NCBI GenBank assembly: GCA_030524135.1
Contig: JAUNHA010000022.1
Coordinates: 1 to 35,357 of the forward strand
Direction: 5' to 3'
Source: Eubacteriales bacterium
GTDB taxonomy: Bacteria > Bacillota > Clostridia > Lachnospirales > Lachnospiraceae
DNA length: 35,357 nt
The stretch's first letter is position 1. Each line of letters begins with the position of its first letter. This document shows positions 13,116 through 35,237 of the stretch, in pieces. A program made the position numbers and the translations under genes. A model generated the notes under the pieces. The model saw nothing but the letters and a program-made list of their open reading frames with translations, was not told the origin of the DNA and ran no database searches.

Positions 13116-13180
13116 GGGGAGACTGCCCCGGATAGCATCATCGGAATATGGGTGCCTGCCATGCCGCAGGCACTTTTTTT
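13116..13180 (+). terminator. Terminator of the HAD gene
   Basis: A first hairpin CCGGGG/CCCCGG (13116-13133) precedes a classic terminator, GTGCCTGC (13152-13159) with GCAGGCAC (13166-13173) and seven T. Confidence 0.85.
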
Positions 13181-13407
13181 GGTTCGTCTGCGGGAATGAA
13201 TGCAGAGCTGCGGCAGTTCTTTTGACGGCGGTTTGTTTGTTAAAAATGTGACAAGTTTACCCTTGTCTTTTTTTTTATTTTATGAGAAAATAAATGGAGA
13301 AACAGCCGGGTTTGCACGGAAATCATCAGGGTATAGGGAAAAAAGCTCCTGTATTTTTCATGCATCGGCTTTTCGTGTTGAAGATAAATCGAAAGGAGCT
13401 AAATCGC
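13181..13407 (+). promoter_or_regulatory. Upstream region of the scaffold/GGGtGRT pair with a Rex-like site
   Basis: A Rex-like sequence lies at 13237-13254: TTGTTAA, four bases, GTGACAA. It matches 12 of the 14 fixed positions of a Rex operator if TTAACAA and TTCACAA half-sites are both allowed. Just after it, GACAAG/CTTGTC (13250-13267) forms a six-bp hairpin followed by nine T, which could be a weak terminator or attenuator. A weak promoter may be TTGTCT (13263)/GAAAAT (13286). The long leader up to 13407 shows only one AAAAGC/GCTTTT pairing. Confidence 0.4.
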
Positions 13408-14115
13408 ATGATTTACACACAGGAAGTTGAACACATGTGTCCTGTCGCACAGGGCGTACATCACGGCGCTGCACCGATTCCTGAAGAGGGAAAATGGGTT
13501 CAGGCAAAGGAAGTAAAGGATATTTCCGGCCTTACGCATGGTGTGGGCTGGTGCGCACCGCAGCAGGGTGCCTGCAAGCTGACGCTTAATATCAAGGAAG
13601 GCATCATCCAGGAAGCGCTTGTCGAGACCATCGGCTGCTCGGGCATGACCCATTCAGCAGCGATGGCAGCGGAGATCCTGCCGGGTCTTACGGTACTGGA
13701 GGCGCTTAACACGGATCTGGTATGCGATGCGATCAACACCGCTATGCGCGAGCTGTTCCTCCAGATCGCTTACGGACGTTCCCAGTCTGCATTTTCAGAT
13801 GACGGACTTCCTGTAGGAGCCGGACTTGAGGATCTTGGAAAAGGTCTCCGCTCCCAGGTTGGAACCATGTATGGTACGCTTAAGAAGGGTCCGCGTTATC
13901 TGGAGATGGCAGAGGGCTATGTAACCGGAATCGCACTCGATGAGAACGACCAGATCATCGGCTACGAATTCGTTTCTCTTGGAAAAATGACCGACTTCAT
14001 CAAGAAGGGCGACGACCCGAACACCGCCTATGAAAAGGCAAAGGGTAAGTACGGCCGTGTGGATGAGGCTGCAAAGATCATCGATCCGCGCACCGATCAG
14101 GAAGTCGAGAAATAA
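13408..14115 (+). CDS. IscU/NifU-like iron-sulfur cluster assembly scaffold
   Basis: A 235-residue protein. The middle region (about 55-110) matches the IscU fold: ACKLTLNIKEGIIQEALVE, then IGCSGMTHSAAMAAEIL, then LEALNTDLVCDAI. Cys77 and Cys106 are in the positions of the second and third IscU cluster ligands. Further cysteines sit at 11, 49 and 56. The C-terminal half (TMYGTLKKGPRYLEMAEGYVTGIAL onward) is an extension not found in IscU. AAAGGAG precedes ATG 13408; the upstream in-frame ATG has no support. It is 21 bases from the GGGtGRT gene and clearly co-transcribed. Whether it builds clusters generally or for its partner is unknown. Confidence 0.8.
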   Translation: MIYTQEVEHMCPVAQGVHHGAAPIPEEGKWVQAKEVKDISGLTHGVGWCAPQQGACKLTLNIKEGIIQEALVETIGCSGMTHSAAMAAEILPGLTVLEALNTDLVCDAINTAMRELFLQIAYGRSQSAFSDDGLPVGAGLEDLGKGLRSQVGTMYGTLKKGPRYLEMAEGYVTGIALDENDQIIGYEFVSLGKMTDFIKKGDDPNTAYEKAKGKYGRVDEAAKIIDPRTDQEVEK

Positions 14116-14136
14116 GGGTTAAGGAGGAGAGACGAA

Positions 14137-15147
14137 ATGGCACTTTTCGAAGGATACGAGAGAAGAATCAATAAGATAAATGAAGTCCTTAACTCATATG
14201 GAATTAAGGATATTGAAGAAGCAAGAAAGATCACGGAAGATGCAGGCCTTAACGTATACGATATGGTAAAGGGTGTGCAGCCGATCTGCTTTGAGAATGC
14301 ATGCTGGGCTTACATTACGGGCGCGGCAATCGCAATTAAGAAGGGCTGCAGAAATGCAGCGGATGCGGCAGCGGCGATCGGCGAAGGCCTTCAGGCCTTC
14401 TGCATTCCGGGATCCGTTGCGGACAACCGTAAGGTAGGTCTCGGGCACGGAAACCTCGGCAAGATGCTTCTGTCCGAGGAGACGGAGTGCTTCTGCTTCC
14501 TGGCAGGTCATGAGTCGTTCGCGGCGGCAGAGGGGGCGATCGGTATTGCAAACAATGCAAACAAGGTCCGTAAGAACCCGCTCCGCGTTATCCTGAACGG
14601 TCTTGGAAAGGATGCGGCAGTTATTATTTCCCGTATCAACGGCTTCACTTCCGTGGAGACGGAGTATGATCCGTATACCAATACCGTAAAGGAGATCTCC
14701 AGAACCGCATATTCAAACGGTCCGAGAGCAAAGGTCAACTGCTACGGCGCAAACTCCGTTCCGGAGGGCGTTGCGATCATGTGGAAGGAGAACGTGGACA
14801 TTTCCATCACCGGAAACTCCACGAACCCGACGCGTTTCCAGCATCCGGTAGCAGGTACCTATAAGAAGGAACGCATCGAGGCAGGGAAGAACTATTTCTC
14901 CGTTGCATCCGGCGGCGGAACGGGACGTACCCTGCACCCGGACAACATGGCTGCAGGACCGGCTTCCTACGGTATGACGGACACCCTGGGCCGTATGCAT
15001 TCCGACGCGCAGTTTGCGGGATCTTCTTCCGTACCGGCGCACGTTGAGATGATGGGCCTCATCGGCATGGGCAACAACCCGATGGTTGGTGCCACCGTTG
15101 CAGTGGCGGTTTCCGTACAGGAAGCTGCTCAGGCAGGAAAGTTCTAA
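14137..15147 (+). CDS. GGGtGRT-family protein, function unknown
   Basis: A 336-residue protein carrying GGGTGRT at residues 259-265, the motif that names this family of uncharacterised anaerobe proteins. Other striking stretches are GLGHGNLGKMLLSEETECFCFLAGHESFAAAEG, FAGSSSVPAHVEMMGLIGMGNNPMVGATVAVAV and many small-residue loops, giving a nucleotide- or cofactor-binding feel without a classical P-loop. Cysteines cluster in the first half (51, 56, 71, 89, 118, 120). There is no signal peptide or TM segment. GGAGG is about nine bases before ATG. It is paired with the IscU-like gene, so an Fe-S client or partner role is inferred. Confidence 0.85.
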   Translation: MALFEGYERRINKINEVLNSYGIKDIEEARKITEDAGLNVYDMVKGVQPICFENACWAYITGAAIAIKKGCRNAADAAAAIGEGLQAFCIPGSVADNRKVGLGHGNLGKMLLSEETECFCFLAGHESFAAAEGAIGIANNANKVRKNPLRVILNGLGKDAAVIISRINGFTSVETEYDPYTNTVKEISRTAYSNGPRAKVNCYGANSVPEGVAIMWKENVDISITGNSTNPTRFQHPVAGTYKKERIEAGKNYFSVASGGGTGRTLHPDNMAAGPASYGMTDTLGRMHSDAQFAGSSSVPAHVEMMGLIGMGNNPMVGATVAVAVSVQEAAQAGKF

Positions 15148-15209: not shown

Positions 15210-15239
15210 GGGAGAGCACCGTAATGTGCGCTCCCTTTT
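15210..15239 (+). terminator. Terminator of the GGGtGRT operon
   Basis: GGGAGAGCAC (15210-15219) pairs with GTGCGCTCCC (15226-15235) around a six-base loop, followed by TTTT. From here to 15420 the sequence is A/T-rich and I see nothing else. Confidence 0.8.
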
Positions 15240-17389: not shown

Positions 17390-17407
17390 TTGTTAAATTA
17401 ATAACAA
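17390..17407. promoter_or_regulatory. Rex-like redox operator upstream of ppdK
   Basis: TTGTTAA, ATTA, ATAACAA: matches the Rex consensus TTGTTAA-N4-TTAACAA at 13 of 14 fixed positions. Rex represses fermentation and reductant-handling genes when NADH is low. It lies about 40 bases upstream of the ppdK -10. Confidence 0.6.
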
Positions 17408-17550: not shown

Positions 17551-20187
17551 ATGTCACAGAAATGGGTGTATATGTTTAAAGAGGGCAATGCAGAGATGCG
17601 TAACCTTCTCGGAGGCAAAGGCGCAAACCTTGCGGAGATGACCATTCTCGGTCTCCCGATCCCGCAGGGATTTACCGTTACGACGGAAGCCTGCACGGAT
17701 TATTATACGCAGGGCGGAAAGATTTCCGACGAGATTCAGGGACAGATTTTTGAAGCGCTTCGGCAGCTTGAGGAAATCAACGGCAAGAAGTTCGGTGACA
17801 ATGCGGATCCGCTTCTTGTATCGGTCCGTTCCGGTGCGCGCGCGTCCATGCCGGGCATGATGGATACGATTCTTAACCTTGGCCTTAACGACGTGGCGGT
17901 AGAGGGCTTTGCAAAGAAGACGGGTAATCCGCGTTTTGCGTATGATTCATACAGAAGATTTATCCAGATGTTCTCCGATGTTGTAATGGAGATTCCGAAG
18001 TCTACCTTTGAGAAGATAATTGATGAAGTTAAAGAAGAAAAAAACGTAAAGTTTGACATCGAGCTCGATGCGGACGATATGAAGACGCTTATCACCCGTT
18101 TCAAGGAATATTATAAGGAACAGAAGGGAACAGAATTCCCGCAGGATCCGAAGGAGCAGCTCATGGAAGCGGTGAAGGCAGTATTCCGCTCCTGGAATAA
18201 TCCGCGTGCGATCGTATACCGCCGCATGAACGATATTCCGGGCGACTGGGGCACTGCAGTCAATGTTCAGACCATGGTATTCGGAAACATGGGCAATACC
18301 TCGGGAACCGGCGTTGCATTTACGAGAAACCCGTCCACGGGTGCGACCGGAATCTACGGCGAGTATCTGATCAATGCGCAGGGTGAGGACGTTGTAGCCG
18401 GCGTTCGTACGCCGCAGCCGATCTCGAAGCTCGAGGAGGATCTGCCGGAATGCTATAAGGAGTTCATGGAACTCGCAATGAAGCTCGAGAATCATTACCG
18501 TGATATGCAGGACATGGAGTTTACCATTCAGGAAGGAAAGCTGTTCTTCCTGCAGACCCGTAACGGAAAGAGAACCGCTCCGGCAGCGATCAAGATCGCG
18601 TGTGATCTCGTTGACGAGGGTAAGATCACGCCGGAGGAGGCTGTATGCCGTATCGACGCAAAATCTCTTGATCAGCTTCTGCATCCGACCTTTGAGCCGG
18701 CAGCTCTCAAGGCAGGCACCGTGATCGGTTCCGCACTTCCGGCATCTCCGGGCGCTGCTGCAGGTAAGGTGTATTTCACCGCTGATGAGGCAAAGGCTGC
18801 CCATGAAAAGGGCGAGCGAGTGATCCTCGTAAGACTTGAGACATCTCCTGAGGATATCGAGGGTATGCATGCCTCCGAGGGTATCCTGACTGTCCGCGGC
18901 GGTATGACCTCTCATGCTGCAGTCGTGGCAAGAGGTATGGGAACCTGCTGTGTATCGGGCTGCGGCGAGATCAAGATCGATGAGGAAAAGAAGGTATTTG
19001 AGCTCGGCGGACATACCTATCATGAGGGAGATTACATCTCTCTTGATGGTTCAACCGGAAAGATCTATGACGGCGACATCAAGACTCAGGACGCGGTAGT
19101 CGGCGGCGATTTCAAGCGTATTATGGACTGGGCGGATCAGTACAGAGAGCTTGGCGTGCGCACGAACTCCGATACGCCGAAAGATACGGAGAATGCAGTC
19201 AGCCTCGGCGCTGAGGGCATCGGCCTCTGCCGTACCGAGCATATGTTCTTTGAGCCGGATCGTATCCCGAAGATCAGAAAGATGATTCTCTCTGAGACCG
19301 TAGAGGCGCGCGAGGCGGCGCTTAACGAGCTGCTTCCGTTCCAGAAGGGCGATTTTAAGGCGATGTACAAGACCCTCGAGGGAAGACCGATGACAGTTCG
19401 TTACATCGATCCGCCGCTTCACGAGTTTGTTCCGAAGACTGAGGAGGAGATCGCTGAGCTTGCAAAGGATATGGGCCTCAGCGTTGAGCATGTTAAGGAA
19501 GTCTGCGACAGCCTGCACGAGTTCAACCCGATGATGGGACACCGCGGCTGCCGTCTGTGCGTGACCTATCCGGAGATCGCAAAGATGCAGACGAGAGCGG
19601 TCATGGAGGCTGCGATCGAGGTAGCGGAAGAGACCGGAAAGGAGATCGTTCCGGAGATCATGATCCCGCTCGTAGGTGAGGTAAAGGAGCTTAAGTTTGT
19701 CAAGGATGTGGTCGTAGAGACCGCAGAGGCAGTCAAGAAGGAAAAGGGATCCGACATGCAGTATCACATTGGTACGATGATCGAGATTCCGCGTGCGGCA
19801 CTTATGGCAGGCGATATTGCGAAGGAAGCGGAGTTCTTCTCCTTCGGTACGAATGACCTGACCCAGATGACCTTTGGCTTCTCCCGTGATGATGCAGGCA
19901 AGTTCCTGGATGCATACTACAAGGCAAAGATCTATGAGTTTGATCCGTTTGCAAAGCTCGATCAGGCAGGTGTCGGCCAGCTGGTTAAGATGGCCGTTGA
20001 AAACGGAAGAAAGACCCGTCCGGACCTCAAGTGCGGTATCTGCGGAGAGCATGGCGGTGATCCGTCTACCGTAGAGTTCTGCGACAGCGTAGGCCTTAAC
20101 TATGTGTCCTGCTCGCCGTTCCGTGTGCCGATCGCGAGACTTGCGGCGGCTCAGGCAGCGCTCCACAGAAAAGGAATCGTTAAATAA
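17551..20187 (+). CDS. ppdK: Pyruvate, phosphate dikinase
   Basis: This 878-residue enzyme interconverts pyruvate, ATP and phosphate with PEP, AMP and pyrophosphate, and in many Clostridia serves PPi-linked glycolysis or gluconeogenesis. The N-terminal ATP-grasp begins WVYMFKEGNAEMRNLLGGKGANLAEM. The phosphohistidine domain carries the catalytic His in GGMTSHAAVVARGMG (about residues 450-465). The C-terminal PEP/pyruvate barrel includes EGIGLCRTEHMFF, MGHRGCRL and CGICGEHGGDPSTV with the catalytic Cys. The length is standard. AAGGAGG lies nine bases before ATG. No PPDK regulatory protein gene is adjacent. Upstream operators suggest redox control. Confidence 0.97.
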   Translation: MSQKWVYMFKEGNAEMRNLLGGKGANLAEMTILGLPIPQGFTVTTEACTDYYTQGGKISDEIQGQIFEALRQLEEINGKKFGDNADPLLVSVRSGARASMPGMMDTILNLGLNDVAVEGFAKKTGNPRFAYDSYRRFIQMFSDVVMEIPKSTFEKIIDEVKEEKNVKFDIELDADDMKTLITRFKEYYKEQKGTEFPQDPKEQLMEAVKAVFRSWNNPRAIVYRRMNDIPGDWGTAVNVQTMVFGNMGNTSGTGVAFTRNPSTGATGIYGEYLINAQGEDVVAGVRTPQPISKLEEDLPECYKEFMELAMKLENHYRDMQDMEFTIQEGKLFFLQTRNGKRTAPAAIKIACDLVDEGKITPEEAVCRIDAKSLDQLLHPTFEPAALKAGTVIGSALPASPGAAAGKVYFTADEAKAAHEKGERVILVRLETSPEDIEGMHASEGILTVRGGMTSHAAVVARGMGTCCVSGCGEIKIDEEKKVFELGGHTYHEGDYISLDGSTGKIYDGDIKTQDAVVGGDFKRIMDWADQYRELGVRTNSDTPKDTENAVSLGAEGIGLCRTEHMFFEPDRIPKIRKMILSETVEAREAALNELLPFQKGDFKAMYKTLEGRPMTVRYIDPPLHEFVPKTEEEIAELAKDMGLSVEHVKEVCDSLHEFNPMMGHRGCRLCVTYPEIAKMQTRAVMEAAIEVAEETGKEIVPEIMIPLVGEVKELKFVKDVVVETAEAVKKEKGSDMQYHIGTMIEIPRAALMAGDIAKEAEFFSFGTNDLTQMTFGFSRDDAGKFLDAYYKAKIYEFDPFAKLDQAGVGQLVKMAVENGRKTRPDLKCGICGEHGGDPSTVEFCDSVGLNYVSCSPFRVPIARLAAAQAALHRKGIVK

Positions 20188-35008: not shown

Positions 35009-35094
35009 GGAAAGGTATCGAAGTGGTCATAACGAGGCGGTCTTGAAAACCGTTTGTCCGCAAGGGCGCGAGGGTTCGAATCCCTCCCTTTCCG
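35009..35094 (+). tRNA. tRNA-Ser (TGA)
   Basis: GGAAAGG (35009-35015) pairs with CCTTTCC (35087-35093), discriminator G35094. The loop CTTGAAA gives anticodon TGA. A long variable arm (TTTGTCCGCAAGGGCGC) marks serine. CCA is not encoded. Confidence 0.95.
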
Positions 35095-35148
35095 CTTGGA
35101 AGCGGAGACGTTTCCGGACTTAATTAAATAAGAGATTTAGCTCAACCT

Positions 35149-35237
35149 GCAGAAGTACCCAAGTGGTTGAAGGGGCTCCCCTGGAAAGGGAGTAGGCTGT
35201 TAATAGCGGTGCGAGGGTTCAAATCCCTCCTTCTGCG
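35149..35237 (+). tRNA. tRNA-Ser (GGA)
   Basis: GCAGAAG (35149-35155) pairs with CTTCTGC (35230-35236), discriminator G35237. The stem CTCCC/GGGAG with loop CTGGAAA gives anticodon GGA, plus a long variable arm. CCA is not encoded. Confidence 0.95.

Follow-up and report, generated by a model that had tools for sequence, protein, structure and literature searches.

The window, by which we mean the whole stretch of 35,357 nucleotides analysed here, contains two adjacent genes that form a strict two-gene unit, the first (gene 1) encoding an IscU/NifU-like protein and the second (gene 2) a GGGtGRT protein. In our judgement the chances are evenly balanced that this pair is an abundant, iron-linked complex of two proteins, perhaps under redox control, with a metal or Fe-S site that an IscU-derived subunit would hold for the GGGtGRT partner. 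The two genes and the hairpins around them are the following.

13150..13175, plus strand: terminator-like hairpin from the hairpin scan, 3' of an upstream HAD-type gene (named by eye)
13408..14115, plus strand: gene 1, IscU/NifU-like protein of 235 amino acids, ATG start at 13408
14137..15147, plus strand: gene 2, GGGtGRT protein (PF14057) of 336 amino acids
15210..15239, plus strand: hairpin with a tail of four T, 3' of gene 2, spotted by eye

The unit is well supported by phylogenetic profiling, in which the two genes occur together wherever the assembly permitted checking. A profile search of 199 genomes of the phylum, a sample that includes the genome of the window (G000), found PF14057 in 10 genomes, each of which also carries full-length gene 1 (409-455 bits), and no genome with one gene alone; the remaining gene 1 matches in this sample score below 34 bits, and the nine that were fetched are ordinary IscU. 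In the family sample of 100 genomes, G000 again included, 78 have both genes, 19 have neither, and three (G216, G246, and G296) show a mismatch, with a gene truncated by a contig end in each. Counted singly, PF14057 is present in 79 of these 100 genomes and gene 1, at more than 40 bits, in 80, while a gene 1 tally of 83 counts three genomes with a weak match alone. The preliminary description regarded frequent separation of the genes as the observation that would speak against it; we looked for such separation in both genome samples and in the individual loci, and the genes were not often apart.

The arrangement of the pair is equally regular. The order gene 1, then gene 2, on one strand holds in 39 of 39 loci, the window not counted, and in 85 of 86 further loci, the sole exception (L046) being a locus that begins 46 bases 5' of gene 2; these counts take in gene 1 fragments at contig starts and four loci with a longer reading of gene 2 that overlaps gene 1. 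The 86 further loci consist of the best 80 of 586 genome_contigs matches and six records from the plasmid and phage collections, so that the set, being mostly best matches, leans to close relatives. The gap between the genes is 12-26 bases in 76 of 123 loci, with a range from -20 to 263. The pair has a single copy in G000, and another genome carries a second, diverged copy (G283:C1:1346985-1348673) that is again a pair, 21 bases apart (384 and 534 bits). The distance matrices of gene 1 and gene 2 correlate over 120 loci (r = 0.90, the highest shuffled value being 0.27), a correlation that we discount as evidence because common ancestry alone could yield it; FastTree trees of the two genes agree poorly. 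A small annotated open reading frame of 63 amino acids lies between the genes in Parabacteroides (L124:5800-5991); the Bacteroides finegoldii annotation shows none at this place.

Among 79 loci of stated lineage, 54 are Lachnospirales, which makes G000 probably a member of the Lachnospiraceae. The fetched loci span Bacillota, Bacteroidota, Collinsella, Vibrio, Persicobacter, Parabacteroides, and Subdoligranulum. The pair had been attributed to gut anaerobes, which is too narrow, since Vibrio loci (65% identity) and Persicobacter loci carry it. The distribution is patchy, with the family in 3 of 247 genomes of the phylum reached via a locus titled Alistipes and in one of 14 control genomes (Bacteroides ihuae).

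Within the window, the two genes are both on the plus strand and 21 nucleotides apart, as first described, and from this spacing, the common strand, and the hairpins we infer that they are co-transcribed. Because the hairpin at 13150-13175 follows the HAD-type gene, the start of the pair is probably that of a new transcript; the hairpin at 15210-15239 is absent from the list of the hairpin scan, which requires five T. Rfam at gathering thresholds gave five tRNA genes alone in the window, near both ends (273-616 and 35009-35237), and no known RNA element upstream of the pair. Among 79 loci there is no conserved third gene beside the pair beyond lineage-local neighbours, the widest neighbour being a topoisomerase-like gene (named by eye) in 28 of them. 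In a Collinsella locus (L125:1-3361) a transposase gene separates the pair from a SUF operon upstream of it.

To judge from profile comparisons, gene 1 is a distant relative of IscU/NifU, and the residues on which this assignment and the comparison with gene 2 depend are listed here.

About residues 33-102 of gene 1: IscU-like core, as delimited by hhalign
13546..13569, plus strand: gene 1 loop G47-G54 (GWCAPQQG), with invariant C49, in place of the IscU CGD
13630..13650, plus strand: gene 1 loop I75-T81 (IGCSGMT), with C77 opposite the second cluster cysteine of IscU
14908..14934, plus strand: gene 2 loop S258-L266 (SGGGTGRTL), invariant in a 77-row alignment and following a predicted strand (254-257)

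The likeness of gene 1 to the IscU/NifU N-terminal domain (PF01592, TIGR03419, TIGR01999) is confined to residues 33-102 with their GC cysteine, the part that hhalign matches to 11 canonical IscU sequences with a probability of 96.7% and an E-value of 3.6e-10; an hmmsearch of the PDB (best E-value 4.8e-5) agrees with homology of the IscU-like core. In contrast to members of this domain, gene 1 falls below the curated cut-offs (18.9 bits for Pfam NifU_N, cut-off 22; 21.9 and 17.9 bits for the NCBIfam IscU/NifU models, cut-offs 187.9 and 192.4), has neither CGD nor LPPVK nor an alignable HC cysteine, is longer by about 130 residues at the C-terminus, and comes linked to gene 2. This long C-terminal extension, noted from the beginning, is real and covers about residues 103-235, the single Pfam match of gene 1 ending at 113. 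LPPVK is the chaperone motif of Isc-type IscU; it is absent from the gene 1 sequence, and the fetched canonical IscU sequences have LPP, or LPA/LPE with K. One locus (L114:7305-7996, from a metagenome-assembled genome) has gene 1 in two overlapping frames, a frameshift or an assembly error.

Three gene 1 cysteines, C49, C77, and C106, are invariant in 120 of 120 sequences, and C56 is conserved in 98% of the 120. That two of the IscU cluster cysteines are kept is therefore half right: C77 is the GC cysteine, but the CGD cysteine is missing at its aligned place (Q52-Q53-G54), where Q52 faces the cysteine and G54 the aspartate, and C49 stands three residues before the aligned position. C106 lies outside the part aligned by hhalign, and to match it with the third IscU cysteine (HC) is a guess. 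Canonical IscU with CGD, GC, and HCS was read in 15 genomes of the two samples besides G000. The pair is also present in six of these (G264, G220, G224, G291, G284, and G273), so that gene 1 in those six adds to the scaffold and does not stand in for it. In G000, the gene 1 model, the sole search made for canonical IscU, picked up none.

Gene 2 is a full-length member of PF14057 (634.8 bits, cut-off 27, profile positions 1-327 of 327 covered), from which no difference was seen, and the GGGTGRT loop recognised in it earlier is present at residues 259-265. Neither the Pfam name nor the papers found give the family a function. The six cysteines pointed out in the first 120 residues are also there (C51, C56, C71, C89, C118, and C120), but none is invariant, their conservation in 120 sequences being 89, 68, 84, 96, 97, and 40%, respectively; with no invariant cysteine anywhere among these sequences, we rejected the idea that gene 2 cysteines are cluster ligands. 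Six histidines are invariant in the same 120 sequences. The AlphaFold2 model of gene 2 has a helical N-terminal third followed by a part, half of the fold, that is probably Rossmann-like. Matches to it include glycosyltransferases, sugar epimerases, short-chain dehydrogenases, Rex, and universal stress proteins, a list that is not exhaustive; in comparison with such proteins, the match of gene 2 is spread over many families at 3-17% sequence identity and barely covers the helical residues 1-111. Among solved structures no sequence relative of gene 2 is convincing, the best E-value being 0.0079 (a guanylyl cyclase), or 0.16 with a profile, and a profile comparison found no homology between gene 1 and gene 2. 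One alignment, in which a fused protein stood among single-gene rows, was excluded, as it matched the gene 1 rows to the half that corresponds to gene 2.

The region upstream of gene 1 contains two candidate control elements.

13237..13254, plus strand: Rex-like operator TTGTTAAAAATGTGACAA, with 2 mismatches to TTGTTAANNNNTTAACAA
13262..13291, plus strand: proposed promoter, with the -35 TTGTCT and the extended -10 TGAGAAAAT (13283-13291), common to related loci

The proposed promoter is not in the list of the consensus promoter scan. An extended -10 of the form TGNGAAAAT, with the unusual hexamer GAAAAT, occurs in 57 of 117 regions upstream of the pair and in 8 of 416 control regions, and in the loci printed it is mostly preceded by a -35-like TTGAC, TGGAC, or similar. 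With TTGTTAANNNNTTAACAA, which we take to be the consensus of the Rex operator, sites with at most 2 mismatches are present in 13 of the 117 upstream regions and 6 of the 416 controls, and sites with at most 3 mismatches in 35 and 29, respectively. The 117 regions come from all fetched loci, the window included, and are mostly Lachnospiraceae-like, while the 416 controls come from L042-L121 only and are slightly shorter and lower in AT (238 versus 260 bases, 61 versus 63% AT). An unbiased palindrome search placed TTGTTAA with a spacer of 4 among its top words (13 occurrences, versus 0.5 in shuffles), other top words being derived from the ribosome-binding site. The window alone is not significant, its 3 Rex-like sites comparing with a mean of 0.96 in an approximate shuffle and being matched in 12 of 100 shuffles; the palindrome search and the comparison with the 416 regions are the better controls. 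Fisher values, which count related loci as independent, do not enter the evidence. A Rex-type gene is present in G000, and the pair may be under Rex (NADH/NAD) control. A further Rex-like operator, with 1 mismatch, is found at 17390-17407, 143 bases 5' of the gene at 17551.

The link of the pair with iron finds its support in published expression data for Bacteroides and Clostridium, within the accessible parts of the two papers concerned. In iron-depleted Bacteroides thetaiotaomicron, BT0173-74 drop 12.8 to 11-fold, and the text available for that paper does not name GGGtGRT for its two other species (PMC10434189). In Clostridium, the GGGtGRT protein F502_05012 rises with iron, 7.1-fold early and 2.2-fold late, as does F502_05017, labelled "NifU-related domain" and represented by two spots (2.4 and 3.7-fold early, 1.6 and 2.9-fold late, with the column order as we interpret it in the part available; PMC5395762). 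The two locus tags adjoin. Taken together, these data indicate that gene 1 and gene 2 both track iron in two phyla. Weaker support comes from three other studies: the neighbouring tags DFSSTS7063_01431 and _01432, bearing both labels, are down in a table in which most proteins are down (PMC12014591), both labels are down in another data set (PMC13041051), and both are named, from different species, in a third (PMC7035244). A NifU-family gene of C. difficile adjoins iscS2 (PMC6311696), and by this position we take it to be a different gene from that of the pair.

Codon usage suggests that the pair is highly expressed. Among 50 loci from L042-L121 with at least 14 kb and at least 5 neighbours, there are 40 in which no neighbour has an effective number of codons as low as that of gene 2, where chance would give about 5 (there are 9.4 neighbours per locus on average); gene 1 is on average more strongly codon-biased than 86% of its neighbours (49 loci). 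In the window, gene 2 has an effective number of codons of 35.8, and the gene at 17551, named by eye as a pyruvate phosphate dikinase, one of 39.0. Metaproteomes point in the same direction, since their "NifU" entries are likely gene 1. In the rumen, the part of the report at hand lists "nitrogen-fixing protein NifU" for three cows with values of 0.28, 1.72, and 1.47%, percentages whose base is ambiguous as the 25 listed families total nearly 100, and discusses the abundant protein as a sign of rumen nitrogen fixation (PMC6043501). In the human gut, COG0822 makes up 1.0% of the core spectra, and the available text treats the NifU homologue as a helper to be expected in Fe-S assembly (PMC3261163). 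The Parabacteroides and Collinsella records give gene 1 the label "nitrogen-fixing protein NifU", a label that is ambiguous, given that a Bacteroides record names gene 1 otherwise and COG0822 also covers IscU. GGGtGRT is described in the accessible portion of a study of chicken caecum as highly expressed in distantly related taxa (PMC11204068), and the labels of the pair appear in listings alone in the parts available of PMC12643325, PMC12101220, PMC9942572, PMC7671984, and PMC13386881.

We infer for the pair a physical complex, a metal site, and catalysis, and the mechanism that we propose is as follows. The products of gene 1 and gene 2 would together form one dedicated complex, gene 1 being an IscU-derived subunit that has lost the general scaffold role and may hold a metal or Fe-S site of its own through C49, C77, and C106. 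Gene 2 would be the partner with the Rossmann-like part, whose invariant loops AGHES, GLGKD, TGNSTNP, and SGGGTGR are predicted to cap strands and to shape one crevice; its stretch from GGGTGR to DAQFAG probably becomes ordered only when gene 1 or a ligand binds. The complex would be made in quantity under ample iron, reduced under iron shortage, and possibly controlled by Rex through NADH/NAD. A bolder version, which we put forward tentatively as a possibility short of an even chance, is that the IscU-derived subunit permanently holds the cofactor for a catalytic protein of Rossmann-like fold, the two being a novel two-subunit metal enzyme, among the more abundant function-less proteins of gut and rumen and hidden under the name "nitrogen-fixing protein NifU".

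If the complex exists, proteins in the top 25 of human gut and rumen metaproteomes have an uncharted iron-dependent biochemical role, and the pair offers an alternative to the nitrogen-fixation reading (PMC6043501) and the assembly-helper reading (PMC3261163) given in the accessible parts of those reports. It would also exemplify, in clean form, an IscU fold that may have changed from scaffold to subunit, and BT0173-BT0174 are a two-gene target in a tractable bacterium. The earlier statement that the two proteins have no known joint function agrees with the open-access literature, in which we found neither such a function nor a functional study of the gene 1 or gene 2 protein; subscription papers and preprints were outside this scope.

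Three other readings have to be weighed. An iron-sulfur reserve or buffer, in which the pair stores iron and sulfide when cells are rich in iron and releases them later, with gene 2 as a shell or assembly partner, would suit the signs of high expression (codon bias and metaproteome listings), the sharp drop of the pair without iron, and a two-gene unit lacking common pathway neighbours in the loci examined. We nevertheless consider it unlikely, because gene 2, according to its model, resembles a Rossmann-like protein with invariant loops and not a cage, and because a true ferritin is also present in the genome of the window. Of the 81 genomes of the family sample that have either gene, 20 have ferritin (at least 100 bits), as do 3 of the 19 lacking both, counts that give no sign of the pair replacing ferritin, an idea that we dropped.

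The IscU-like core with its GC cysteine and the strict gene pairing could likewise be read as a dedicated scaffold, in which gene 1 builds or carries a cluster and then releases it, the client being gene 2 or another protein. The cysteine and aspartate of CGD are, however, missing at their aligned place, LPPVK is absent, the general scaffold is retained in pair-carrying genomes (which supply 6 of the 15 canonical IscU genes), and gene 2 has no invariant cysteine to accept a cluster. Scaffold proteins are usually less abundant than this pair appears to be, and the signs of high expression together with the lost CGD count against a plain delivery scaffold, which makes this reading quite unlikely in our view. 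It is improbable that gene 1 binds zinc or relays sulfur like SufU, or is a structural partner alone, with the pair unrelated to Fe-S. In favour of this reading is the weak core likeness of gene 1 to SufU (TIGR01994; 16.4 bits, below the cut-off), whose PDB name is zinc-dependent sulfurtransferase; against it, gene 1 lacks the aspartate of CGD, which the SufU of the Collinsella locus L125 has, and expression tracks iron in two phyla.

The complex with an IscU-derived subunit remains our preferred reading. As to a phage or plasmid origin, we claim no mobility of the pair. Gene 2 was found in six records of the phage collection, two of them covering most of the gene, and among viral_contigs gene 2 was found in 1 and 7 loci and gene 1 in 4, several being truncated at one end of the stretch. 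The plasmid records, 10 in number, are large Vibrio and Persicobacter replicons and "plasmids" of gut strains that have a chromosomal look.
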